A stretch of DNA of 64,000 bases from a virus: the IMG/VR virus record IMGVR_UViG_3300030102_007626, positions 1 to 64,000 of that record; one strand, 5' to 3'. The notes under the pieces were generated by a model. It was not told where the DNA came from. It did not search any database and saw nothing but the letters and a program-made list of their open reading frames with translations. Both the position numbers and the translations under genes were made by a program. This document shows positions 11,701-49,141 of this stretch, piece after piece. Within the stretch, counting starts at the first letter, position 1. The number at the start of each line of letters is the position of its first letter.

Positions 11701-11915
11701 TATTTACTACAGCAAGTATAGTTTATAGTGGAAGTAATGTTACACAAGTAACACAATCATTTGGATCAACCCAACAAATAACAAATATAATCTACTCAGG
11801 TTCATTTGAAGATGGGAATCCTTTATCAATATCCGTGACTGGGTCAGATGGGGTTAATAAATTATACACTCTAACATATAGTGCAAGTTTAGTTACACAA
11901 ATAATACAAAGTTAA
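8772..11915 (+). CDS. Long tail fibre with YadA-head-like HAEG repeats and collagen-like segment
   Basis: The 1047-aa fibre has a short collagen-like stretch (GPQGKKGDTGAQGTPGD, residues 38-54). Ten HAEG repeats (plus HSQG and HTEG variants) follow in two blocks between about residues 136 and 510. HAEG repeats spaced 14-16 residues apart are the hallmark of the left-handed YadA-type head domain of trimeric adhesins. The second half carries SGSxxxTG beta-rich repeats of phage fibre shafts. It is probably the receptor-binding fibre or its shaft. From about 11030 the codon and base use becomes less AT-rich than the first part, suggesting a mosaic C-terminal half. Confidence 0.82.
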   Translation: MATAKNVSTENKVNIVTNTENNVTVTQPSIQAVEIITGPQGKKGDTGAQGTPGDPASTGSLVATGSVSNNVLTFTKGDNSTFVLTVDTGSSTTPAGNDQEIQFNNNGSFGGDSKFRFIHTSQSLEQGNGVNASGSYSHAEGEFTKAIGSGAHAEGQVTRAIGEASHAEGRETKALGKFAHSQGEQTMAIGRASFVAGDINTASAHYSFVIGNQNKETHGEYGFVAGYGNASTEDAKYSTVLGYQSHVYGWAAVAIGRKTSASFYGFASGDATRALFAAHAEGRFTKANSRYTHTEGVSTMGGGHFVTLFTASSTEPTSNWGDEDEDSNINDGDVWYNTNNNLLYAYSGSPSGVFVSQNTTPVETISFNTSSGVYTFFTGSAAFGNGDTFPPSSGSDILAARHQYNSGKHSHAEGVLTTTYARNSHAEGKSTVAAGFASHAEGLATRTGAHNNYYAQLEGESGSYAHAEGKQTQAVGIASHAEGLSSRALGDFSHAEGLLTIALGDYQHTMGRYNHPNTHSLVIIGNGQNSSITSSLIEFNRDGIIINEPITGSTFNVEANTIISDNSDTELLRVTQTGTGDAIRIEDSGNPDSTPTVITNVGDVLIGTGSGAPANNKLYVKEGDAGSLSLSSGNTVVIESNTTNYLGLFAPDASFSGIVMGSPSDAFGAFIRWQHDSGQLRIAAAKTNHSIGFSVGNKSATSMQLTPDATSTSNPNATLTVTGSIRSHTGSFGRLEGLSPIIVGDQTTFEQSITASSNISASGTIVASNLSGTNTGDQDLSSFITNSQTASMSVESASFATTASHLLDNPPPFPFVGDATITGSLTVSGSQTGVTAAVEKINLGKYSIQTLNSQDAGFLGQFGGQLIISASDFTYKNPLFVIQRHALNNEGLDLWAQKDFYVGGSSYASGEISTIFSVSGSDSGGRYGEIHLGNELKSLNLQPSIKILGHVTASANISSSGTIESAGNITSGTSRTLFTTASIVYSGSNVTQVTQSFGSTQQITNIIYSGSFEDGNPLSISVTGSDGVNKLYTLTYSASLVTQIIQS

Positions 11916-11924
11916 TATTTATAA
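11916..11924 (+). promoter_or_regulatory. Late-promoter-like box TATTTATAA
   Basis: Exact box, 9 nt before the ATG at 11934. Confidence 0.55.
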
Positions 11925-11933
11925 TAAAGAATT

Positions 11934-12218
11934 ATGGCAACATACACACTACCAAATGGATCAACATGGAACACCGGTTTAGATTATTTTAAACAAACCG
12001 ACGAAAACGTGTATCAATTTATTAAAGAGATTGAAGCAGCAAACACTCCAGTTAAAACATCTATCTCTGGAGCTCCTACGCCAAGAACATCTCAACAACA
12101 ATGGATTGAGTCTTCATACGACAATTACAACTACATACGTACTACTACTTATACATATGACGGAAACACATACGTTAGAAAACATGTACAAGAAACATTT
12201 GAAATACAAAGTAAATAA
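11934..12218 (+). CDS. Hypothetical protein in tail fibre module
   Basis: The 94-aa soluble protein has Tyr- and Thr-rich beta-strand-like repeats (YDNYNYIRTTTYTYDGNTY) and no recognised domain. It lies between the long fibre and a beta-helix protein, 2 nt before the next gene, and has its own late-type box. It may be a fibre attachment or accessory adhesion protein, which is inferred from context only. Confidence 0.5.
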   Translation: MATYTLPNGSTWNTGLDYFKQTDENVYQFIKEIEAANTPVKTSISGAPTPRTSQQQWIESSYDNYNYIRTTTYTYDGNTYVRKHVQETFEIQSK

Positions 12219-12220
12219 TT

Positions 12221-13639
12221 ATGGCATGGACATTATCAGGTGATTATTATGTAGACGCAGTAGCCGGAGACGATACTAATGCAGGAACATCTACAGCACC
12301 ATTTAAAACAATACAAAAAGCAATACAAGAAGCAGAAGACAATGGATCAGGATACCAAGACATTATAGTCGGAGCTGGCACATACACAGACAGACTAGTA
12401 GCAGGAACCACAACCAATTACCTATGCTTTAAAGCAGACGGTGAAGTAATATTTGATGCTAGCAGCACAGGCGACAGTGCATTTTATAATGGCAACTTAT
12501 GGCGTGTTGAAGGATTTAAAATAGTTGATGTTGAACAAGCATTGCAAAAATCAAGTAACGATGCGTATCGAGTAAATTTTCATAAATGCTACATAAAAAA
12601 TTGTCCTGATTGGTATATAGATGCAATTATGGCAGAACTTTCTAAATATCATGACACTAATTGTATATTTGAAAACTGTGGAAGCACAAACATAAGCACA
12701 ACAAAATATGCTCGTTATTGGGCATTTACAAATTGCATGTTTATTAACAGTTGGATGCCAGGTTATAGAGCTAATGGTGATTTTTTTAGTAGTAATACTT
12801 TTACTCCACCCGCCAATTCATGTGTATTTATAAACACTGAAGATAATGGAATCACTAATTATTATATGAGCAGTGCACAATATGGAGCTGTCAGAAATTG
12901 TGTATTTAACGAACATGCTGTGTACAGAAATACCACTACTATAAAACGATCAGGATCTGCATTAGCTGACTATTTTGATACTAATACCAGTCATTATTGG
13001 GAAGCAGGAGCCATAGTTGCTAGTGCATCATTTAACACAGACATATCTGGATCTAACATGATGTCAGATGCAATGTTTACTTTAGCAGGCACCACATCTA
13101 ATAAAGATTATTTTCAAAACTATCGTTTAGGTACTACCGGTAGATTTGCTGGTACTAAAAACATGGCAACAGCGTATGGATATCAAGATATTGCATCTAA
13201 TCCATTTCACACTGCAGGTGGAGCAACGTGGACAAATATTACTGCATCAAATACAGGAGGTTTACAAATTTCAGCATCTACACACCCAACTGGAACAATC
13301 GAATCTGCAGTTATAGACCAAGGAAGTGTAAAAGTTATTAGACAAATTAAAACGTCATTTACTTCTACAGTACTAGGTGCAACTGGTATATCAGCTCACA
13401 CTGCAAGTGTAGACAACAAATTCCCAACTAGACAAACATTTGAAATGCGTTTTGGAAATACTTCTAATTTGTCTAGTACTGACTATCAAATATTTGATAC
13501 TGATTTACCGACATATGTAGATTTAAACGGATCAGGTAGTGGTGATGTAGGATTCAATACTGGTAGTTTTAGCTTACCGAGTGCTAGATATTTGCAACTC
13601 AAATTTACACTAAGAACCAACATGACTGGATCAGCATAA
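12221..13639 (+). CDS. Beta-helix (pectate-lyase-like) tail protein
   Basis: The 472-aa protein begins with YYVDAVAGDDTNAGTSTAPF followed by KTIQKAIQEA, the standard opening of DUF1565-type right-handed beta-helix proteins. Asn/Cys turns typical of stacked coils (NCIFENCGS, NCMFINSW) follow. It is probably a second spike or host-surface-degrading protein. No catalytic residues can be named. Codon choice is less AT-biased than neighbouring structural genes, consistent with horizontal acquisition of an adsorption cassette. The stop overlaps the next start by one base. Confidence 0.7.
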   Translation: MAWTLSGDYYVDAVAGDDTNAGTSTAPFKTIQKAIQEAEDNGSGYQDIIVGAGTYTDRLVAGTTTNYLCFKADGEVIFDASSTGDSAFYNGNLWRVEGFKIVDVEQALQKSSNDAYRVNFHKCYIKNCPDWYIDAIMAELSKYHDTNCIFENCGSTNISTTKYARYWAFTNCMFINSWMPGYRANGDFFSSNTFTPPANSCVFINTEDNGITNYYMSSAQYGAVRNCVFNEHAVYRNTTTIKRSGSALADYFDTNTSHYWEAGAIVASASFNTDISGSNMMSDAMFTLAGTTSNKDYFQNYRLGTTGRFAGTKNMATAYGYQDIASNPFHTAGGATWTNITASNTGGLQISASTHPTGTIESAVIDQGSVKVIRQIKTSFTSTVLGATGISAHTASVDNKFPTRQTFEMRFGNTSNLSSTDYQIFDTDLPTYVDLNGSGSGDVGFNTGSFSLPSARYLQLKFTLRTNMTGSA

Positions 13640-26052: not shown

Positions 26053-28680
26053 ATGGGGCTTTTAATAAAATTAAAAAATGGGGATACCTCATTAAAATCT
26101 CTTAAATTTGGTAAAGATAGACCAGGAGGAGGAGATAGTGGAAAGCCTTATATTCAAACCCCAATCGGAGACCAAGCTGAAAATACAGCTATTGATGGTG
26201 ATGGAATTATTAGAGGTGGTTTAACTGCACCATCTAGAGCACTTGAAGATGTTACGCGTTTATCAAAATATTTTTTTGATTTTAAAAACCCAAATGGGTT
26301 ACTTTTTACAGCAAAACAAAATTTACTTTCAAGAATAGCCCCAAAAACAGAAACAGCAATAGGTCTTGGTTATGGTGGAAGTAAATCAAGAACTCTTTTA
26401 GGGCCAATGGCTCAAGATGTTAGTGATGGATTTACTGAAAATAATGGACTTATAAATGGAGGTATTTATACTCCTTTATCTACTTTAGGACAAGCAGCAG
26501 TTGGTTTTACAGGAACCCACATTAACAAACAAGGGCTTGACCCTACAGGACTACTCCCAGATGCTGCTATTAAAAAATATGGTGATGTAGTATTTCAAAA
26601 CAATAAAGCAGAAAGAAATGGTGATGGTCCTGTTAGAAGTATTATACCTTTTAATCTTATAAAAAAAGAACAAAGAGCAAGTGATAGACTTGAAAATGCT
26701 ACTTTACAACAATCTAATGCTGAAGATAGAGCTATTGATGAATTAAATAGAGAAGCTTCTCAAACTGATTTATTTACTCGTGGTCGTGTTCTTCCACCTA
26801 TCCCAAAAGTTTCTACATCACTAAATAATGCTGCTAATTCATTTCTAAAAAAATGGGATGAATATAGGAACCAACAAGCTCAAAAAAAGTTAGATAGAAA
26901 AACAAATAAATTACAAACGGCAGAAAAAAAAGCATTAGAAGCTAGTGCAAATGTAGGCCAATCTTATGAAGATAACTTTCAGGAGGTATATTATGATAAT
27001 AGATTATTAAATTTATGGAATTCACAAGGTTTAGATACTACTAAATCATATGAAGGACAAATTTATAATTTAGCTTCTGGAGGGGTTTTATATTCTTATG
27101 GGGGTGGTCCTAATTCTATTGCTGGGGTAGGAAAAACAGATATACGTTTTTCTACTTTAAATGATGGGGTTTCACCTGTTAGAACAGGAGCATTTAGAAT
27201 AGACCCGTATTTTAAAGGGGTTGATAAAGATACATCTCTCCCTATCTATGAATATGGTAAACCCATAAACCGTCCCTTAATATATAGTCTTAAACATATT
27301 TTTTCTAATAATACTGTTTCTTTACTTTACCAACAATTAAATAATCCTTTAGTTAAAGGAGAACAATTATTTGGTACAAAAACCTATCTTATAGATAAAG
27401 ATAATAAAGAAGATATACAACCATGGGATAATAATGATCTTATAAGATCAAATACTAGTTTTTTTAGTGAACCTGATAATGACCAAATTATATCTGCTGC
27501 TTGGAATTATGGTGATTTTATATCCCAAGATCCTAATAGAACAGGCCAATTAAAACAAGATTTTAGAAAAAATATATCATCAAATCAAACAAAAACTTTT
27601 ATAGCTAAATCTCCTGATTATTTAAAAGAAAACCTAGAAAGAAGAGTTAATATAGGAGAATTTAACGATCCTGGCCAAAAAGGAGATATATCCAATTATG
27701 TATTAGGTAAAAGAGATTTAGGTGCAGGAAAAATTGTTTTAGGGGCGGTAGATACTATTAATACTTTACCTGTATATAAATCAAATAGTGGACCTTTAGG
27801 ATCAGGGGGTGATGGAAAAGATGCTTTAACAAATGACTTTTGTAAATTTAGATTTGCAGTATTAGATAATGATTCAACTTTAAAATTTTATCTTCATTTT
27901 AGAGCTTATTTAGATGGATTTAAAGATAATTATAAAGCTAAGTACAAGTCATTAAGTTATGTTGGAAGAGGAGAAGAATTTCATAAATATGGAGGATTTA
28001 CAAGAGATATATCTTTTGGTTTTAAAGTTGTTGCTTTATCAAAACAAGAACTTCTTCCAATGTATAGAAAATTAAACTTCTTAGCTTCATCTTTAGCCCC
28101 TAGCTATACAAATGCAGGATATATGGGTGGTACTATGACAGAAGTTACTATAGGTGGTTATTTATATAATCAACCTGGGATAATTACAAGTATTAATTTA
28201 TCGGCTCCAAAAGAAACAACTTGGGAAATTCAAGTTCCTTTAAAAGGAATAACAGAAGATGGAACAGGTAAAGCAAGCGATTTTACAGATAAATCCACCT
28301 TAGAATTACCACATATGATAGAAGTAGATGTAAGCTTTACACCTATCCATGACTTTAGAGTACAACGTCAAAGAAATGGATTTATGCGTAAGGATGACTT
28401 TCCATTTAACAGTCTTATTGAAGATAAAAATATTCATGGTCCTGAAAGGTATATAAATTTAAAAGAAGCGGGTATAGACGGTTATAAAAGTATTTCACCT
28501 AGTGAAGCAGTACAAATTGAATCAAGAACAGAAGGAGACCAAAACCAAATACCTGATCCTGAATCTGCTTCTGATGAAGCAGAAGCAGCTGAAGCAGCAG
28601 CCGCCGAAACAGCAGCACTTCAACAACTCCAAGAAACTTTTAATAATTTTGGTGGTACAGGATTACCTTTTTCTCTTTAA
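26053..28680 (+). CDS. Baseplate tail-tube / hub-associated protein (gp48/gp54-type role)
   Basis: The 875-aa protein has a tube-like C-terminal domain. FCKFRFAVLDNDSTLKFYLH, LLPMYRKLNFLASSLAPSY, VTIGGYLYNQPGIITSINLS, and ELPHMIEVDVSFTPIHDFRV match the strand pattern of tube-cap and baseplate-tube proteins of contractile phages. The N-terminal 550 residues are polar and without a recognisable domain. It sits between the tape measure and gp53-like genes, where the tube-initiating baseplate proteins are expected. The name gp48/gp54 is a role, not a proven homology. Confidence 0.6.
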   Translation: MGLLIKLKNGDTSLKSLKFGKDRPGGGDSGKPYIQTPIGDQAENTAIDGDGIIRGGLTAPSRALEDVTRLSKYFFDFKNPNGLLFTAKQNLLSRIAPKTETAIGLGYGGSKSRTLLGPMAQDVSDGFTENNGLINGGIYTPLSTLGQAAVGFTGTHINKQGLDPTGLLPDAAIKKYGDVVFQNNKAERNGDGPVRSIIPFNLIKKEQRASDRLENATLQQSNAEDRAIDELNREASQTDLFTRGRVLPPIPKVSTSLNNAANSFLKKWDEYRNQQAQKKLDRKTNKLQTAEKKALEASANVGQSYEDNFQEVYYDNRLLNLWNSQGLDTTKSYEGQIYNLASGGVLYSYGGGPNSIAGVGKTDIRFSTLNDGVSPVRTGAFRIDPYFKGVDKDTSLPIYEYGKPINRPLIYSLKHIFSNNTVSLLYQQLNNPLVKGEQLFGTKTYLIDKDNKEDIQPWDNNDLIRSNTSFFSEPDNDQIISAAWNYGDFISQDPNRTGQLKQDFRKNISSNQTKTFIAKSPDYLKENLERRVNIGEFNDPGQKGDISNYVLGKRDLGAGKIVLGAVDTINTLPVYKSNSGPLGSGGDGKDALTNDFCKFRFAVLDNDSTLKFYLHFRAYLDGFKDNYKAKYKSLSYVGRGEEFHKYGGFTRDISFGFKVVALSKQELLPMYRKLNFLASSLAPSYTNAGYMGGTMTEVTIGGYLYNQPGIITSINLSAPKETTWEIQVPLKGITEDGTGKASDFTDKSTLELPHMIEVDVSFTPIHDFRVQRQRNGFMRKDDFPFNSLIEDKNIHGPERYINLKEAGIDGYKSISPSEAVQIESRTEGDQNQIPDPESASDEAEAAEAAAAETAALQQLQETFNNFGGTGLPFSL

Positions 28681-42373: not shown

Positions 42374-42658
42374 ATGGAAAATGTAAAAATTGCTTTATTA
42401 ATAGTTTTATCATATGTTAAAGAAGCTTTTAAATGGATTGGAAGAAAAATTAAAAGTTTTTTTGTATGGGTATTTAGTAAAACAACTATTGATGAGAAAG
42501 TTATAGAAGTTGCAGAAGAAATATCTGATCGTGCAAAAACTGTAAAAGAAGAATTAAAAGACGTAAAAAAAGCTCTTGGTAATGTTGTAGAACAATCAAA
42601 AGACGTAGCGGGAGCAGTGAAAGGTAAAAAAAGAAGAGGTAGACCTAAAAAATCTTAA
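42374..42658 (+). CDS. Small protein with hydrophobic N-terminus and AT-hook-like C-terminus
   Basis: The 94-aa protein has a hydrophobic or amphipathic stretch (VKIALLIVLSYVKEAFKWIG), a coiled-coil middle (EVAEEISDRAKTVKEELKDV) and a basic tail KKRRGRPKKS with the GRP core of an AT-hook, which binds the minor groove of AT-rich DNA. A terminator follows. This combination could tether DNA to the membrane or the capsid interior. No family is recognised. Two other proteins in the window share the RGRP motif. Confidence 0.5.
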   Translation: MENVKIALLIVLSYVKEAFKWIGRKIKSFFVWVFSKTTIDEKVIEVAEEISDRAKTVKEELKDVKKALGNVVEQSKDVAGAVKGKKRRGRPKKS

Positions 42659-42727: not shown

Positions 42728-43027
42728 ATGTTTTATTTTAAAAAGTTTTTTATGAAAATTTATAATTATATAAAAAATAGGATTATGGCTTTTAAAGACA
42801 TGTTTAAAGACAAAAATGATGTAAATGAAAAAAATGTTATAGGATTTTTATCATTTGCAGTGATGGTATTATTTGCTGTTGCTGACCTAATAACAGGATA
42901 TTTAGGTAAAGACTTAGTAGTTCAAGAATTTATTTATAATTCTTTTTTAGTAATTACTTTAGGATGTTTTGGTATAGCAGGAGTTGAAAAAATATTTTCT
43001 AAAAAAAATAACGAAGAAGAAGTATGA
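42728..43027 (+). CDS. Small two-TM membrane protein, holin candidate
   Basis: The 99-aa protein has an N-terminal basic amphipathic region and two hydrophobic segments (VIGFLSFAVMVLFAVADLIT at about residues 37-56, and FIYNSFLVITLGCFGIAGVE at about 68-88), with a charged C-terminus. This matches the size and topology of class II holins. Internal ATGs at 42752 and 42785 are alternative starts. It heads the operon that ends with the endolysin. Its stop overlaps the next start (ATGA). Confidence 0.55.
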   Translation: MFYFKKFFMKIYNYIKNRIMAFKDMFKDKNDVNEKNVIGFLSFAVMVLFAVADLITGYLGKDLVVQEFIYNSFLVITLGCFGIAGVEKIFSKKNNEEEV

Positions 43028-45429
43028 AAAAGTTTTTATCATTATTATTGTGTTTAACTACATTTTTTAGTTTTTCACAAAACAATTGCAATTTTGAAAG
43101 TTCTAATGCATACCAACAATGTATTACCGGCCAGAATGGCATACCTGGAGGTCAAGCAATTATTATTTTTGAATGGTTTAATGCTCCTGGAAGTTGTGAA
43201 GTAGCTTCTGTTTCTTATTCAAATGCAGAAGGTGCTGGCCCATTTACATACCCAGTAGGACAGCCTCCTAATGTACCAAGTGGTAATTTTGGTGTGTATG
43301 CAGGACCGGGTGGAGGACAACCTGCACTTCCTACATGGTCTGTAGAGCATTATTTGGTATTAAACTACTCCAACGGAACACAATCTGATACTATAGCATA
43401 CACTCCATACCCATGTATACCTGGTTGTACAGACCCTAATTCAGAGTCATATAATCCATGGGCTAGTGTAAATAATGGATCTTGTGAAGGGGGAAATGGA
43501 AATGGAGATAATTGTGACCCTGGTGATTTTGAAATAACAGTTGAAATTACACTAGATAGTTACCCAGGAGAAACATCTTGGATATTAACATCATTATCTG
43601 ATGGTGGTTCTCCTATACAAATGCCACAAGGAGAATATAATTTTAGTGATATTGGACAAACATATAGTTATCCTGTTTGTATAGATGAACAAGGAGTTGA
43701 ACTTATAATAAATGATACTTATGGTGATGGATTAGCTGGATCAACAACAGGTGGAACTATTGATGGGAATGTTATTATATATGGTTGTAATGGTGAAATA
43801 CTTTGGGAATTACCTAACCCAAATTTTGGATATACAGGATACTCAGGAGCAGTTTTAGGAGTTCCTTGCAATAATATTGAACCTATACCAGGTTGTATGG
43901 ATCCTTTATATCAAGAATATAACCCTGAAGCAAATGTTGATGATGGAACTTGTGAAAATTTACATGTATATGGGTGTATTGATACATCAGCTTATAACTA
44001 TAATCCAGATGCTACTATAAACCAAATAGTAGAAACATGTAATTATACTTTATGGATAGGAGATGCCGCTGCTGATGGTTGGGGTAATTCATATATAGGA
44101 GTATACCAAGATGGGGAAACTTTAGGTACATATACAATGGGACCTGGTTTAAATGAACAAATTTTTCTTATCTCATTAAACACAGATAAACCAGTACAAG
44201 TTTATTACTTTGAAAATGCTAGTCCTCAACAACCACCTGAAGAAGTTGAATTTCAAACATGGCAAAATTCTTTTAAACTAACAAATTCAGATGGTGTAGT
44301 ATTAATGCATGAAGGATCTAATCCATTTGCTAATAATGGACAAGGTGCATTACAACCTTTTGAATTACCTACTTGGACAACTTATTCTGCATTACCTTAT
44401 TGTGGAGATTATTGTGAACCAAAAATATATGGCTGTATGGATACTCTTTCAGTTAACTATAACCCCTTAGCTAATACAGACGATGGTTCATGTATCCCAA
44501 TTATATATGGTTGTACTAATGAATTAGCATTTAATTACAATCCAGACGCGACAGTAGATGATGGTAGTTGTATACCTACAGTGTATGGGTGTATGGACCC
44601 ATTATCTTGGAATTATAATTCAGAAGCCAATATAGATGATGGTTCATGTATTTATTTTGGTTGTATGGATTCGTTAGCATTAAATTATGATCCTAATGCT
44701 AATGTTGATAATGGTACGTGCATATATCCAATTTATGGTTGTACAGACCCCGAAGCATTTAATTATGATCCTGAAGCTAATGTTGATGATGGTTCTTGTA
44801 TACCTGTAATATATGGTTGCATGGACCCAACTGCTTTTAATTATAATCCACTAGCTAATACTGATAATGGATCATGTGAACCAATTGTTTTTGGTTGTAC
44901 TGATTCAACAGCATTAAATTATAACCCACTAGCTAACACAGATAATGGTACTTGTATATTACCTTTAGCAGGGTGTACAGACCCTAATGCCTATAATTAT
45001 GACCCAACAGCAAATGTACCCGATTCATCAGCTTGTTTATATGATGCTGGTTGTATTGGGGGACCAGGTAATCCTTATTGGTTAAATGATGGTTGTTACG
45101 CTTGGGTAATAGATGTTGATATTTATTGTTGTGAAGTAGAATGGGACGCTTCATGCCAATCCATGTATGATTATTGTGAAGCTGGATGGCCTGTAGGAAT
45201 AGATGAAATGGATATTAATGGAATTATCGTTTATCCAAACCCAACAGATAATACTTTAAATATTGAAACTCATTTATCATTTAAATATGAATTAAGAGAT
45301 GCAATGGGTAAACTATTATTAACAGGAGAAAATAAACGTTTAGAATTAGGTAAATATAATGATGGAGTTTATTTTTTAACCTTAATTCATAACGAGAAAA
45401 AATTTAATAAAAGAATTATAAAACAATGA
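43024..45429 (+). CDS. Secreted T9SS cargo protein with repeat domain, host-derived
   Basis: The 801-aa protein has a typical flavobacterial signal peptide (MKKFLSLLLCLTTFFSFSQ) and eleven repeats of about 23 residues of the form GC(T/M)DxxAxNYNPxANxDDGSC between about residues 134 and 700. The C-terminal domain starts IIVYPNPTDNTLNIET and ends in GVYFLTLIHNEKKFNKRIIK, a type A sorting signal of the T9SS (Por) system. Such proteins are exported across the outer membrane by Bacteroidota. I know of no common phage function. It lies in the late lysis operon between the holin candidate and an outer-membrane-like protein. The repeats are Cys-pair- and Asp-rich and may bind calcium. Confidence 0.85.
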   Translation: MKKFLSLLLCLTTFFSFSQNNCNFESSNAYQQCITGQNGIPGGQAIIIFEWFNAPGSCEVASVSYSNAEGAGPFTYPVGQPPNVPSGNFGVYAGPGGGQPALPTWSVEHYLVLNYSNGTQSDTIAYTPYPCIPGCTDPNSESYNPWASVNNGSCEGGNGNGDNCDPGDFEITVEITLDSYPGETSWILTSLSDGGSPIQMPQGEYNFSDIGQTYSYPVCIDEQGVELIINDTYGDGLAGSTTGGTIDGNVIIYGCNGEILWELPNPNFGYTGYSGAVLGVPCNNIEPIPGCMDPLYQEYNPEANVDDGTCENLHVYGCIDTSAYNYNPDATINQIVETCNYTLWIGDAAADGWGNSYIGVYQDGETLGTYTMGPGLNEQIFLISLNTDKPVQVYYFENASPQQPPEEVEFQTWQNSFKLTNSDGVVLMHEGSNPFANNGQGALQPFELPTWTTYSALPYCGDYCEPKIYGCMDTLSVNYNPLANTDDGSCIPIIYGCTNELAFNYNPDATVDDGSCIPTVYGCMDPLSWNYNSEANIDDGSCIYFGCMDSLALNYDPNANVDNGTCIYPIYGCTDPEAFNYDPEANVDDGSCIPVIYGCMDPTAFNYNPLANTDNGSCEPIVFGCTDSTALNYNPLANTDNGTCILPLAGCTDPNAYNYDPTANVPDSSACLYDAGCIGGPGNPYWLNDGCYAWVIDVDIYCCEVEWDASCQSMYDYCEAGWPVGIDEMDINGIIVYPNPTDNTLNIETHLSFKYELRDAMGKLLLTGENKRLELGKYNDGVYFLTLIHNEKKFNKRIIKQ

Positions 45430-46487
45430 AAAAACTTTTAATTTTATTTCTATTATTACCCTTAATTACATTTAGTCAAACAGAGTCTAAATTTAAAAAA
45501 ACAGTTAAAAAAGTTCTTAAATATTCTACCTTTTATGGTGCTGTTACTGGTGGAAATTCAATATCTGATGTTAATGTTTATTCTGTAACAAATGGTTTAG
45601 AAACTTCAACTGTTAAAACTCCTTTTGATTATTCAATTGCATTAGGGGTTAGAAAAATAGCTAGGTTTGGTTATGAAAATAGAGCTAATATATTTTTTGA
45701 TGGAACAGAAAAAACATATGGTGATGCAGCTACAATTGGTAGAATAAATGGGTTTGAATATTTATTTGAAGCAGATTGGACAAGACAACAAGGTACATCA
45801 TTTTTAAATCAAGACTATTTTTTAAGATATGTAGCAAAAAACTGGATTGCTAAAGCAGAATACTTAGAAGATGGATTTGCTGATATTAGATATTTTGAAT
45901 CTTCAGAAAGATATAGACAAAAAATAGGAAATAAATTATCTTTTAATATAGGAGCAGTACAACGTATAGCTGAACCTTACGGTTATAACCCATTAGACCA
46001 ATGGTTATTATCAAATGGTAGTTTGCATTATACTGATTTAGCATTACAAGAGGGGTATTCTATTGAGTTTGATGGAAATGGTGGTGTAAATTATTTTAAC
46101 CCTAGTGGAGAATTAGTAGCAGAAAATACCCAAGTATGGGAAGCAGTAGTCATACCAGAAGTATTAGCTGAGTATACAGAAAAAGAAAGAAAAGCATTAA
46201 AATATCAATGGAATCATTCATTAGTAATAGGTTTTGATTTTTATCACTATACTAAAGATTTTTGGGTACATTCGTGGGGTAACGTGATGCCTTTACATTT
46301 AGAAACTAAAAGTGACTATTCATACCATAAATTTAATGGTGGACAGTGGGTAGACTATTCAGGTGGTTTAATATTTGGATATAAAATAACTAAAAATTTA
46401 GGAGTATTTTTAGAAGGTAAATATAATAAATACTGGAATAGAAAATGGCACGATTTTAGTGTAGGAATAAATTATATAATTTTATAA
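45426..46487 (+). CDS. Signal-peptide protein, outer membrane beta-barrel-like
   Basis: The 353-aa protein has signal peptide MKKLLILFLLLPLITFSQ and then alternating aromatic strands (RYVAKNWIAKAEYLEDG, HSLVIGFDFYHYTKDFWVHS, GGLIFGYKITKNLGVFLEGK). The final strand DFSVGINYIIL is like the closing strand of outer membrane barrels. No domain is recognised. It starts at the ATGA overlapping the T9SS gene stop, so the two are translationally coupled. A role in outer membrane disruption, superinfection exclusion or docking of the T9SS protein is plausible but inferred. Confidence 0.6.
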   Translation: MKKLLILFLLLPLITFSQTESKFKKTVKKVLKYSTFYGAVTGGNSISDVNVYSVTNGLETSTVKTPFDYSIALGVRKIARFGYENRANIFFDGTEKTYGDAATIGRINGFEYLFEADWTRQQGTSFLNQDYFLRYVAKNWIAKAEYLEDGFADIRYFESSERYRQKIGNKLSFNIGAVQRIAEPYGYNPLDQWLLSNGSLHYTDLALQEGYSIEFDGNGGVNYFNPSGELVAENTQVWEAVVIPEVLAEYTEKERKALKYQWNHSLVIGFDFYHYTKDFWVHSWGNVMPLHLETKSDYSYHKFNGGQWVDYSGGLIFGYKITKNLGVFLEGKYNKYWNRKWHDFSVGINYIIL

Positions 46488-46488
46488 A

Positions 46489-46773
46489 ATGGCAAAAGAA
46501 CTAAACGAAGACACAGGTTTTAGAGTAAGTATAAAAACTTTAATAGGTATTGCTTTTGCAATAGCAACTGTAGTAGGTATGTGGTTTGCTTTACAAGCTG
46601 ACATACAAGAAGCAAAAGAATTACCAAAACCCCCCGAACCAGAAGTAACTAGAATGGAATTTGACATGAAAGATCAAATAGTTAGACAAACTATTATGAC
46701 TACTCAAGAAGATGTTAAAGAATTAAAAACTGATATGGATCGCATAGAAGAAAAAATTGATAATCTAAAGTAA
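46489..46773 (+). CDS. Membrane-anchored coiled-coil protein, spanin- or holin-like
   Basis: The 94-aa protein has one transmembrane segment (SIKTLIGIAFAIATVVGMWF, about residues 14-33), a Pro-rich linker (PKPPEPEV) and a coiled coil (QEDVKELKTDMDRIEEKIDN). This resembles inner-membrane spanin subunits or small phage membrane proteins with a periplasmic coil. It starts right after the previous stop and belongs to the lysis operon. Confidence 0.55.
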   Translation: MAKELNEDTGFRVSIKTLIGIAFAIATVVGMWFALQADIQEAKELPKPPEPEVTRMEFDMKDQIVRQTIMTTQEDVKELKTDMDRIEEKIDNLK

Positions 46774-46779
46774 ATTATT

Positions 46780-47109
46780 ATGAAAAAGATGTTTTTACTA
46801 CTGTTTAGTATATTTTTTACAATAAGTTGTTATACTCAAATTACTATTAAACATTTTAATGCTTCATGGAATGCTACAAATAATGTTACATGGCTCAAAA
46901 GTTTAACAGATTGTAATGTAAAATATTATGACATAACTAAAAATCCTGAATTACAAAAAAAATATAAAGTAGTAGTTGTTCCAACTATTGTAGTATTTCA
47001 AGATGGAGAAGAAATAGAAAGATATCAAGCAGACATTTCTTTTAAAATGCCCGCTACAAAAAGTGAAGTACAAGAAGCTATTGATGAAGCTATAATGGGT
47101 GGATTTTAA
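46780..47109 (+). CDS. Thioredoxin-fold lipoprotein lacking the CxxC
   Basis: The 109-aa protein has an N-terminal hydrophobic stretch ending in TISC (C17), a plausible lipobox. The body has the thioredoxin pattern: TIKHFNASWNATNNVTW in place of WCGPC, then VVVVPTIVVFQDGEEIERY with the cis-Pro (P68). The active-site Cys pair is missing, so it cannot be a redox thioredoxin. It is predicted to be periplasmic, attached to a membrane. It sits between the coiled-coil protein and the endolysin in the lysis operon and could act as a periplasmic binding or structural subunit. Confidence 0.6.
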   Translation: MKKMFLLLFSIFFTISCYTQITIKHFNASWNATNNVTWLKSLTDCNVKYYDITKNPELQKKYKVVVVPTIVVFQDGEEIERYQADISFKMPATKSEVQEAIDEAIMGGF

Positions 47110-47125
47110 ATTATAAACAAAAAAT

Positions 47126-48037
47126 ATGTTACTAAAAAAAGGATCAAAAGGTAAAGAAGTAAAAGAACTTCAAGAAGCCCTAGAAATAGGAGCAGATGGT
47201 ATATTCGGACCTGGAACAGAATTATCAGTTAAAAAATTTCAAAAAGAAAATGGATTAATAGCTGATGGGGTAGTAGGACCTGCTACATGGGAAGCTATAG
47301 GAATAGATACAGATACTACAGCTGAAGAAACAGAATACACAACTAAAGATGGTTTAATAATTGAACGTCAATATTTAGATAAAAATGAATATGTAAGAGA
47401 TTATGGTAAAATAGAACCATTAGGTTTTTTCCTCCACCACACAGCAGGTTGGGACAATCCATTTGCATGTGTAAATAGTTGGAATAAAGATAAAAGAGGT
47501 AGAGTTGCTACTCAATATGTTATAGGAGGAACTAATGTAAAAGGTAAAGAAGCTAAATATGATGGTGTTGTAGTTGAATGTTTCCCAAATAATTATTTAG
47601 GATGGCATTTAGGTAAAGTAGGAAATTTTAAAATATCAAAACTATCAGGTGGTGTAGAACTTAATAACTTTGGCTATTTAACTAAAAAAGGAGATAAGTA
47701 TTATACTTATGTTAATACAGAAGTTAAACCTGAATTTGTTTGTGATTTAGGATATAAATTTAGAGGTCATCAATATTGGCATGCTTATTCAGATAAACAA
47801 ATTGAATCCCTTCGATTACTAATTTTACATTTAAAAGATATTTATCCTAAAATGGATTTAGAAAATGGACTTCCAAAACTATTAAAAGAAGGAGTTCATC
47901 CAAAAGATGCATTTGAATTTAATTTAGATGCTTATAATGCAAAACAATTTGGATTATGGACACACACAAATGTTCGTAAAGACAAATTTGATTGCTTTCC
48001 TCAACATGAATTAGTTGAGATGCTTAAAGGTTTGTAA
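47126..48037 (+). CDS. Endolysin: peptidoglycan-binding domain plus amidase_2
   Basis: The 303-aa protein has an N-terminal peptidoglycan-binding domain with two short repeats (KELQEALEIGADGIFGPGT and VKKFQKENGLIADGVVGPAT, residues 13-55). A zinc amidase domain follows: FFLHHTAGWDNPF (H104 or H105), ECFPNNYLGWHLG, and THTNVRKDKFDCFPQ (H280 and C290 as probable zinc ligands). It cleaves the N-acetylmuramoyl-L-alanine bond at the end of infection. It has no signal peptide, so the holin candidate would release it. A terminator follows. Confidence 0.88.
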   Translation: MLLKKGSKGKEVKELQEALEIGADGIFGPGTELSVKKFQKENGLIADGVVGPATWEAIGIDTDTTAEETEYTTKDGLIIERQYLDKNEYVRDYGKIEPLGFFLHHTAGWDNPFACVNSWNKDKRGRVATQYVIGGTNVKGKEAKYDGVVVECFPNNYLGWHLGKVGNFKISKLSGGVELNNFGYLTKKGDKYYTYVNTEVKPEFVCDLGYKFRGHQYWHAYSDKQIESLRLLILHLKDIYPKMDLENGLPKLLKEGVHPKDAFEFNLDAYNAKQFGLWTHTNVRKDKFDCFPQHELVEMLKGL

Positions 48038-48094: not shown

Positions 48095-49141
48095 ATGAAA
48101 CGATTTTTTCCAATATTAATTTTAATAGCAGCCCTAAGTTTAGCAACTGTAGCTGCTTACTATAGTGTTTTTGGTATTAGTAAATTATTTTCTTCTCAAG
48201 CTAGTGCTGTAATATTAATGGCTGCTATACTTGAAGCTTCTAAACTTATTACTGCTTCTTATTTAGAAAGATTTTGGGAAACTATTCATTGGATAAGAAA
48301 AACTTATTTAATTTCCGCTTTAATAGCATTAATGGCTATAACTTCACTTGGGATTTATGGGTTTTTAGTTTCTGCTTATCAAGAAACGGCATATAAAATG
48401 CAAGCAGTAGATAAACAAGTTGAAGTAAAAGTTAAAAAACGTAATAGATATCAACAACAAATAAAAGATATATCTAAAGAACAAAAAGATATAAATACAC
48501 AAATAATTGAATTAAGTGAAAGCTTAGGTAATAATGTAATACAATATACTAATAGCGAAGGACAACTTATAACTACCCAATCATCAGCAACACGTAAAAT
48601 CATCCAACAACAATTAGATGCACAAACATCTAGAAGAGATAGTTTAACTACTAAACAAGATATCTTAAATGATAGTATAACAAAATTTGATTTAGATATA
48701 CTAAACCTAGAAATTAATTCAGATGTTGCAGCAGAAATTGGACCTTTAAAATATGTTGCTAATATTACAGGAAAAGATACTGATCAAGTAGTAAACTGGT
48801 TTATACTAGTTTTTATTTTTGTTTTTGATCCTTTAGCTGTTATGTTACTTATTTCTGCAAATAAAATATTCTATGAAAATTCTAAAAAAAACATTTATGG
48901 AGAAAAAAAAACTAAAGTTTTAAAGGAAGAAAAAGTAGAGGTAAAACAGGAGGAGAGTAAAGCCGAGCGGGTTAAAGCCCCAACTCCACCCTCTACTGCT
49001 TCTTCTGAAAAGCAACAACTTCAAAATGAAATAGCTAAAATCCAAAGATCTGGAGCTTCAAGTAGAAAAACAGGACAAGCTATAGAAAACTTACAATCTA
49101 GAATTAAAAAAATAGATGATGATAACACTAAAACTTATTAA
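48095..49141 (+). CDS. Membrane protein with central coiled coil
   Basis: The 348-aa protein has three N-terminal hydrophobic segments (about residues 5-30, 36-54 and 72-95). A long charged coiled coil (about 100-210, with the motif QQQIKDISKEQKDINTQII) and a fourth hydrophobic segment (WFILVFIFVFDPLAVMLLIS, about 230-250) follow, then a charged tail. The FDPLAVMLLISAN motif is shared with phage membrane proteins of unknown role. It starts 9 nt after a terminator, without an obvious late box. The function is unknown. Confidence 0.6.
   Translation: MKRFFPILILIAALSLATVAAYYSVFGISKLFSSQASAVILMAAILEASKLITASYLERFWETIHWIRKTYLISALIALMAITSLGIYGFLVSAYQETAYKMQAVDKQVEVKVKKRNRYQQQIKDISKEQKDINTQIIELSESLGNNVIQYTNSEGQLITTQSSATRKIIQQQLDAQTSRRDSLTTKQDILNDSITKFDLDILNLEINSDVAAEIGPLKYVANITGKDTDQVVNWFILVFIFVFDPLAVMLLISANKIFYENSKKNIYGEKKTKVLKEEKVEVKQEESKAERVKAPTPPSTASSEKQQLQNEIAKIQRSGASSRKTGQAIENLQSRIKKIDDDNTKTY

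Follow-up and report, generated by a model that had tools for sequence, protein, structure and literature searches.

Organization of the locus

The DNA analysed here (the window) is a stretch of 64,000 nucleotides, positions 1 to 64,000 of the 155,669-bp IMG/VR virus record IMGVR_UViG_3300030102_007626. On its plus strand lie, in order, the genes of a holin-like protein of 99 aa with two predicted TM segments (42728..43027), a predicted T9SS cargo protein of 801 aa (43024..45429), a predicted outer-membrane beta-barrel of 353 aa (45426..46487), a 94-aa protein that we call TM46 (46489..46773), an exported pseudo-thioredoxin of 109 aa (TRX, 46780..47109), and an endolysin composed of PG_binding_1 and Amidase_2 domains (47126..48037). 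For the holin-like protein, searches of Pfam, NCBIfam and PHROG gave nothing above cut-off, so that its name is taken from topology and position.

The preliminary description of this DNA had placed the cargo gene in a lysis operon, coupled by ATGA overlaps to the holin-like gene and to the barrel gene. Both overlaps are present, at 43024-43027 and 45426-45429, respectively; the TM46 and TRX genes had been left out of that operon.

The contig also encodes a Gp23-type capsid protein, a tail sheath, a DnaB-type helicase and a DNA polymerase, which indicates a T4-like myovirus. Contamination with host DNA was considered and dismissed, because genes for Gp23 and tail sheath lie on the contig and the gene set discussed below recurs in many contigs. 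The host of this marine phage most likely belongs to Bacteroidota, the T9SS-bearing phylum, to judge from the Q-rule leaders of the barrel, cargo and TRX proteins, since the Q-rule is characteristic of Bacteroidota (PMC5837995, PMC10653852). The Bacteroidota promoter pattern shows no excess in the window, with 2 found against 4.3 expected. A tRNA-Ser (gga) reported by ARAGORN at 27956-28046 lies on the same strand inside an 875-aa ORF (26053-28680) and is probably spurious.

The predicted cargo protein

The cargo is composed of a signal peptide, beta-sandwich domains, eleven Cys-rich repeats, a WD-C domain and a type A sorting domain. Its Sec signal peptide (aa 1-19, 43024..43080; MKKFLSLLLCLTTFFSFSQ) is of the Q-rule type found in Bacteroidota, cut ahead of or at the Gln of its end, ..FSFSQ|N. 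A small residue followed by Q occurs in 41 of 42 cargo homologues and in 16 of 42 in a control region, a difference that is weak on its own for the cargo. The leader is followed by a variable N-terminal beta-sandwich region (aa 20-130, 43081..43413) with 54% identity to the relative at locus L004. Exactly eleven copies of the pattern GC[TMI][DN]...NY/EY..A...C were counted. Eight of them form a tandem block of GC-D-NYNP-A-DDGSC repeats at aa 470-671 (44431..45036), with starts at aa 470, 496, 522, 546, 572, 598, 624 and 650, and three stand outside it, at aa 134, 290 and 317. A conserved Cys/Trp domain (YCCEVEWDASCQSMYDYC; aa 678-732, 45055..45219) was delimited from the invariant columns in an alignment of 42 cargo proteins, and the whole protein contains 39 Cys residues. 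The ORF position, the leader and the repeat count thus bear out the 801-aa protein with signal peptide and eleven repeats that had been described beforehand. The AlphaFold model has a mean pLDDT of 76 (76-87 for the block means of the tail), and its fold matches are adhesive beta-sandwich proteins (fibronectin, SiiE) with low TM-scores.

The type A T9SS sorting domain was likewise confirmed, so that the first refuting outcome named beforehand, absence of a match to this domain, did not occur. The C-terminal 66 residues (aa 736-801, 45229..45426) match TIGR04183 of NCBIfam with an E-value of 9e-9 and 35.2 bits, above the cut-off of 23, and PF18962 of Pfam with 33.9 bits against a cut-off of 27; the match is unique within the 155,669-bp record. 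The modelled tail adopts the Ig-like fold, superposing on the substrate tail 8glk_D with a TMt of 0.82 and an rmsd of 1.6. Further solved T9SS substrate tails matched by the model are 8glj_D (TMt 0.76), 8gl8_D (0.67) and 8qb1; 8glk_D, 8glj_D and 8gl8_D are substrate tails in the T9SS translocon.

The repeats raise the question of whether the cargo is instead a virion component, such as a fibre or decoration protein whose tail domain has a structural role. Fibre-like phage proteins without a signal peptide do carry repeats of this kind (L072:5105-9610, L193:3598-5142), and the neighbouring genes are structural in podovirus-like phages. We nevertheless regard this as very unlikely, because the cargo, barrel and TRX proteins carry signal peptides and the sorting tail matches the fold of T9SS substrates. 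The GC-D-NYNP-DDGSC repeats are also found in the fibre-like proteins L063:2-2590 and L094:7169-9616; no signal peptide was seen in any of these four proteins, two of which begin at a contig or ORF edge, and one of which comes from a Kyanoviridae single-cell record. This repeat is apparently a module in general use among surface proteins of marine phages and bacteria.

In L281:7292-10147, L106:11709-13943 and 12 more loci, the position of the sorting domain is occupied by a shorter, recurrent look-alike tail, VTDLLGRPxKxxKNxLLxYIYSDGTVxRKLIKK. No NCBIfam model matches it in the nine proteins tested. Loci L281 and L282 encode about the same cargo, one with the canonical tail and the other with the look-alike (..TDVLGRKIKEQTNQIMLYIYDDGTTERIIKQ). 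Cargo tails are thus exchanged as well. The look-alike is possibly an undescribed sorting signal and, judging from its position, would serve as a T9SS signal. At L077, a second T9SS cargo, of type B (11704-13476, minus strand; CHU_C, PF13585; Q-rule leader) adjoins the cassette on the opposite strand.

The barrel and the two small proteins

The barrel has a Q-rule signal peptide and a NanC/KdgM-like fold. Among 62 homologues of 37-86% identity, 57 positions are invariant, and the leader follows the Q-rule in all 62, compared with 0/62 in a control region. Its model has about 12 strands at moderate confidence (pLDDT 74), and among solved structures the NanC porin matches best (E 1.5e-5, TMt 0.57). 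Searches against NCBIfam and Pfam gave no match at E 0.1. An assignment to PorV or PorP/SprF was therefore rejected: there is no family match, and the strand number of about 12 differs from that of the 14-stranded FadL-type barrels. The commonest order in relatives has the barrel gene directly downstream of the cargo gene, and this gene order suggests that the barrel may be a dedicated partner of the cargo.

TM46, as read from its sequence, has an N-terminal TM helix followed by a periplasmic coiled coil. This layout is i-spanin-like, but the protein is short, the periplasmic part comprising only about 58 residues. TRX has a thioredoxin fold, with 24.7 bits to PF00085 (cut-off 23.5) and a profile match to thioredoxins at E 2.6e-9. 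The cis-Pro is kept, whereas the CXXC motif is lost: FNAxWNxxN stands in place of WCGPC in the 36 aligned sequences. A Q-rule leader is present in 28 of the 36, the homologues having mostly SPI/Q-type leaders. No conserved lipoprotein of the o-spanin kind was found among the cargo, barrel, TM46 and TRX genes. In IMG/VR, at least 574 relatives of TM46 and at least 535 of TRX were counted.

A conserved four-gene cassette

The conserved unit consists of the cargo, barrel, TM46 and pseudo-thioredoxin genes; it is larger than the cargo gene alone, and it is not a lysis operon. In a set of 44 barrel loci differing by more than 5% and with 5 kb present on both sides, TM46 and TRX are found in every one and a canonical cargo in 41. 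When a looser dereplication was applied (61 barrel loci), the tail of the neighbouring large exported protein was canonical in 58, look-alike in 2 and absent in 1, and 37 further loci, on contigs that are partly repeated, gave 25 canonical and 12 look-alike tails. The reverse search, starting from the two small genes, recovered the barrel in 37/39 and 28/28 loci. At L113, the three core genes occur with no cargo nearby.

By head and portal families, both T4-like myoviruses and a podovirus-like group have the cassette; at L066 it is situated among structural genes of a phage whose portal and head set differs. A tblastn search of 50,697 phage records, including cultured phages, gave no match to the barrel, TM46 or TRX, and the cargo gave only a short repeat match, its sorting tail having no credible match. 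A reading as a defence system was rejected, since PADLOC gave no match.

These distributions bear on whether the cargo is a fitness factor, i.e. a host-type adhesin displayed for attachment or aggregation and unrelated to lysis or phage competition. Its repeats and sorting tail are of a kind found in secreted proteins of Bacteroidota, and its fold matches point, with low TM-scores, to adhesive proteins. Because the cargo always comes with these three core genes, in a late cluster, and because these core genes are absent from the phage records searched, we consider this explanation improbable.

Linkage to lysis genes

In the window, the cassette lies between the holin-like gene and the amidase endolysin gene, neither of which is an obligatory member. 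In 20 of the 44 loci, a member of the holin-like family lies no more than 5 kb from the barrel. A recognised holin or endolysin is present within 6 kb in 31/44, a count that was 8/44 with one endolysin family alone and rose when M15_3, phrog_33083-like and phrog_3427 holin models were added; the remaining 13 have none of the modelled families. Nearby endolysins belong to unrelated families (Amidase_2, M15_3, glucosaminidase and phrog_33083-like).

To place the endolysins, genome-wide positions were taken from 21 records with three Pfam endolysin families. Of the 11 genomes with an endolysin, 10 have it within 5 kb of the barrel, where 1.6 would be expected at random (P about 1e-8); kinship inflates this figure, and with one genome per lineage the count is 4/5 (P about 0.003). 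The 5-kb limit was picked after the data were seen. In G041, the genome to which L150 belongs, 42 kb separate the cassette from the amidase gene and 4 kb from a glucosaminidase gene.

In several relatives the holin and endolysin genes are neighbours: they directly abut in L129 and L150, and are adjacent or one small ORF apart in L142 and L184. The cassette hence looks as if it was inserted as a unit. L129, L142 and L184, which are fragments, keep the holin-endolysin pair without a cassette between. For this reason, and in view of the 13 loci without a modelled lysis gene within 6 kb, we rejected the lysis operon as the unit. The cassette thus tends strongly, but not invariably, to lie in a lysis cluster; the link is real, yet not obligatory. 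The earlier placement of a predicted T9SS cargo in a late cluster with holin-like, endolysin and barrel genes was correct, and the association recurs with unrelated endolysins.

Such linkage is what would be expected if the cassette were an outer-membrane lysis module, in which TM46, the pseudo-thioredoxin and the barrel stand in for the spanin complex while the cargo, on the outside, loosens the membrane. The three core genes are strongly conserved, and with TM46 at the inner membrane, TRX in the periplasm and the barrel in the outer membrane, they would occupy the layers that a spanin must bridge. This role is possible, although on balance unlikely. The periplasmic part of TM46 is short for it, there is neither a conserved o-spanin lipoprotein nor a match to a spanin family, lysis genes of the modelled families are missing within 6 kb in 13 of the 44 loci, the holin-endolysin pair persists without the cassette in the fragments named above, and lysis needs no diversifying cargo.

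The lysis cluster is bordered by two membrane proteins, TM42 (42374-42658) and TM48 (48095-49141), which keep this place in relatives that lack the cassette (e.g. L129, L142); they are possible lysis regulators.

Divergence between relatives

Compared with L004 (genome G002), identity is 95-98% for the barrel, TM46, TRX and endolysin, against a genome median of 84%. The cargo shows 74-75% identity, falling to 54% in the N-terminal region, and genes of the tail region are far more diverged, many at 32-50%. The cargo is thus the diversifying part of the cassette, though not the most variable gene of the genome. Its diversification fits surface recognition, while the conservation and position of the three core genes fit a role at the lysis stage. 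The core genes, at 95-97% compared with the median of 84%, fit poorly with an arms-race function.

Competition for receptors through shared fibre domains was rejected as a general reading, since no paralogue was found in 13 of 14 genomes. Plain receptor competition likewise has no sequence support, as in these 13 no domain is common to the cargo and the phage's own fibres.

A variable outer part joined to conserved inner parts could also be regarded as a sensor of lysis timing, with cargo and barrel sensing adsorbing phages and signalling through TRX and TM46 to the holin, as in lysis inhibition. The envelope-spanning set is indeed near a holin-like gene in just under half of the loci. The holin is not always nearby, however, and no interaction of this kind is known, so that the proposal is speculative and the one to which we give the least credence.

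Proposed role

We tentatively propose, with a probability of roughly 0.4, that the four genes form a mobile late envelope cassette whose cargo is shown outside the infected cell around lysis, remodelling or masking the surface. The 801-aa cargo would pass the host Sec system, the host T9SS would take its tail, and the protein would end up displayed on the exterior of the infected cell. The phage barrel would most likely be its partner or anchor, as PorP/SprF barrels are for neighbouring cargo. The pseudo-thioredoxin may be a non-catalytic chaperone for the cargo with its 39 Cys or may form a bridge in the periplasm, and TM46 may tie the cassette to the inner membrane. Masking of the surface around lysis could keep further phages out and keep released progeny off the debris.

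The proposal builds on the observed cargo signature, gene order, conservation, linkage to lysis genes and diversification; from these we infer secretion, late timing, a physical complex and the purpose of the cassette. A cargo that is diversifying, adhesin-like and predicted to be surface-displayed speaks for surface remodelling or exclusion. Conserved core genes in the lysis cluster speak for a contribution to lysis at its outer-membrane stage. If the cargo is secreted, the phages would use a host secretion machine to rework the cell exterior in the last stage of infection, and host T9SS mutants would give a direct test.

Relation to known systems

That a phage encodes T9SS cargo, which the preliminary description presented as new, was already reported in 2019-2020 (PMC6949934, PMC7468147). 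In Cryophage (Nat Commun 2020), phage genes with type A sorting domains were described and superinfection exclusion was proposed (PMC7468147). As in our case, such genes are highly variable between close relatives (PMC7468147). The Cryophage cargoes, however, lie in variable islands and comprise an endoglucanase, a GH39 protein and a PA14 protein, and the publication describes no conserved cassette of barrel, TM and pseudo-thioredoxin genes (PMC7468147). Cluster 2 of the crAss-like phages also resembles our locus in having T9SS sorting domains in Bacteroidota phages, there near head genes, but the domains are linked to BACON and no such cassette was reported (PMC6949934).

Among bacterial systems, PorV receives the type A tail, after which the protein is either released or found on the cell surface, while type B cargo genes often precede a barrel gene of their own (PorP/SprF), which acts as shuttle or anchor, and the periplasmic partner PorE may be added (PMC12618676, PMC9143113). 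The order of a cargo gene followed by an outer-membrane barrel gene is shared with these pairs (PMC9143113, PMC12618676). They differ in having a type B tail and 14 strands, whereas the cassette has a type A tail and a barrel of about 12 strands with no family match, and its partners are instead a pseudo-thioredoxin and a TM coiled-coil protein.

The Rz/Rz1 spanins share with the cassette the location in a lysis cluster and the combination of an inner-membrane coiled coil with an outer-membrane partner (PMC6139136). Unlike two-component spanins, the cassette lacks an o-spanin lipoprotein, its coiled coil is short, and a barrel and T9SS cargo take the place of the partner (PMC6139136). A bolder interpretation is that of a new envelope-spanning phage machine replacing spanins, with a T9SS-placed component outside and the barrel, pseudo-thioredoxin and coiled coil spanning the rest, which would perform the step of lysis at the outer membrane or link that step to events on the surface. 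We hold it to be rather doubtful. Were it true, the machine would be widespread in marine Bacteroidota phages, and in the barrel a type A cargo would have a dedicated partner of a new type.

No description of a cargo-barrel-TM-pseudothioredoxin cassette was found in the open-access literature, a scope with few preprints and with most subscription journals outside it; the conserved cassette therefore appears to be undescribed. Little is known of how the outer membrane is breached or altered by phages of Bacteroidota, whose hosts are abundant ocean bacteria. With more than 570 relatives of its small genes in IMG/VR, across kinds of tailed phages, and its absence from the cultured phages searched, the cassette marks a large blind spot.

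Contigs of cassette-bearing phages are also found binned into archaeal and alphaproteobacterial MAGs; the loci concerned are L188 (CALBOT010000064.1), L190/L191 (Maricaulis MAG) and L189 (Sphingobacteriales MAG). A T9SS sorting domain 'in Nitrosopelagicus' would arise from such misbinning of phage contigs.
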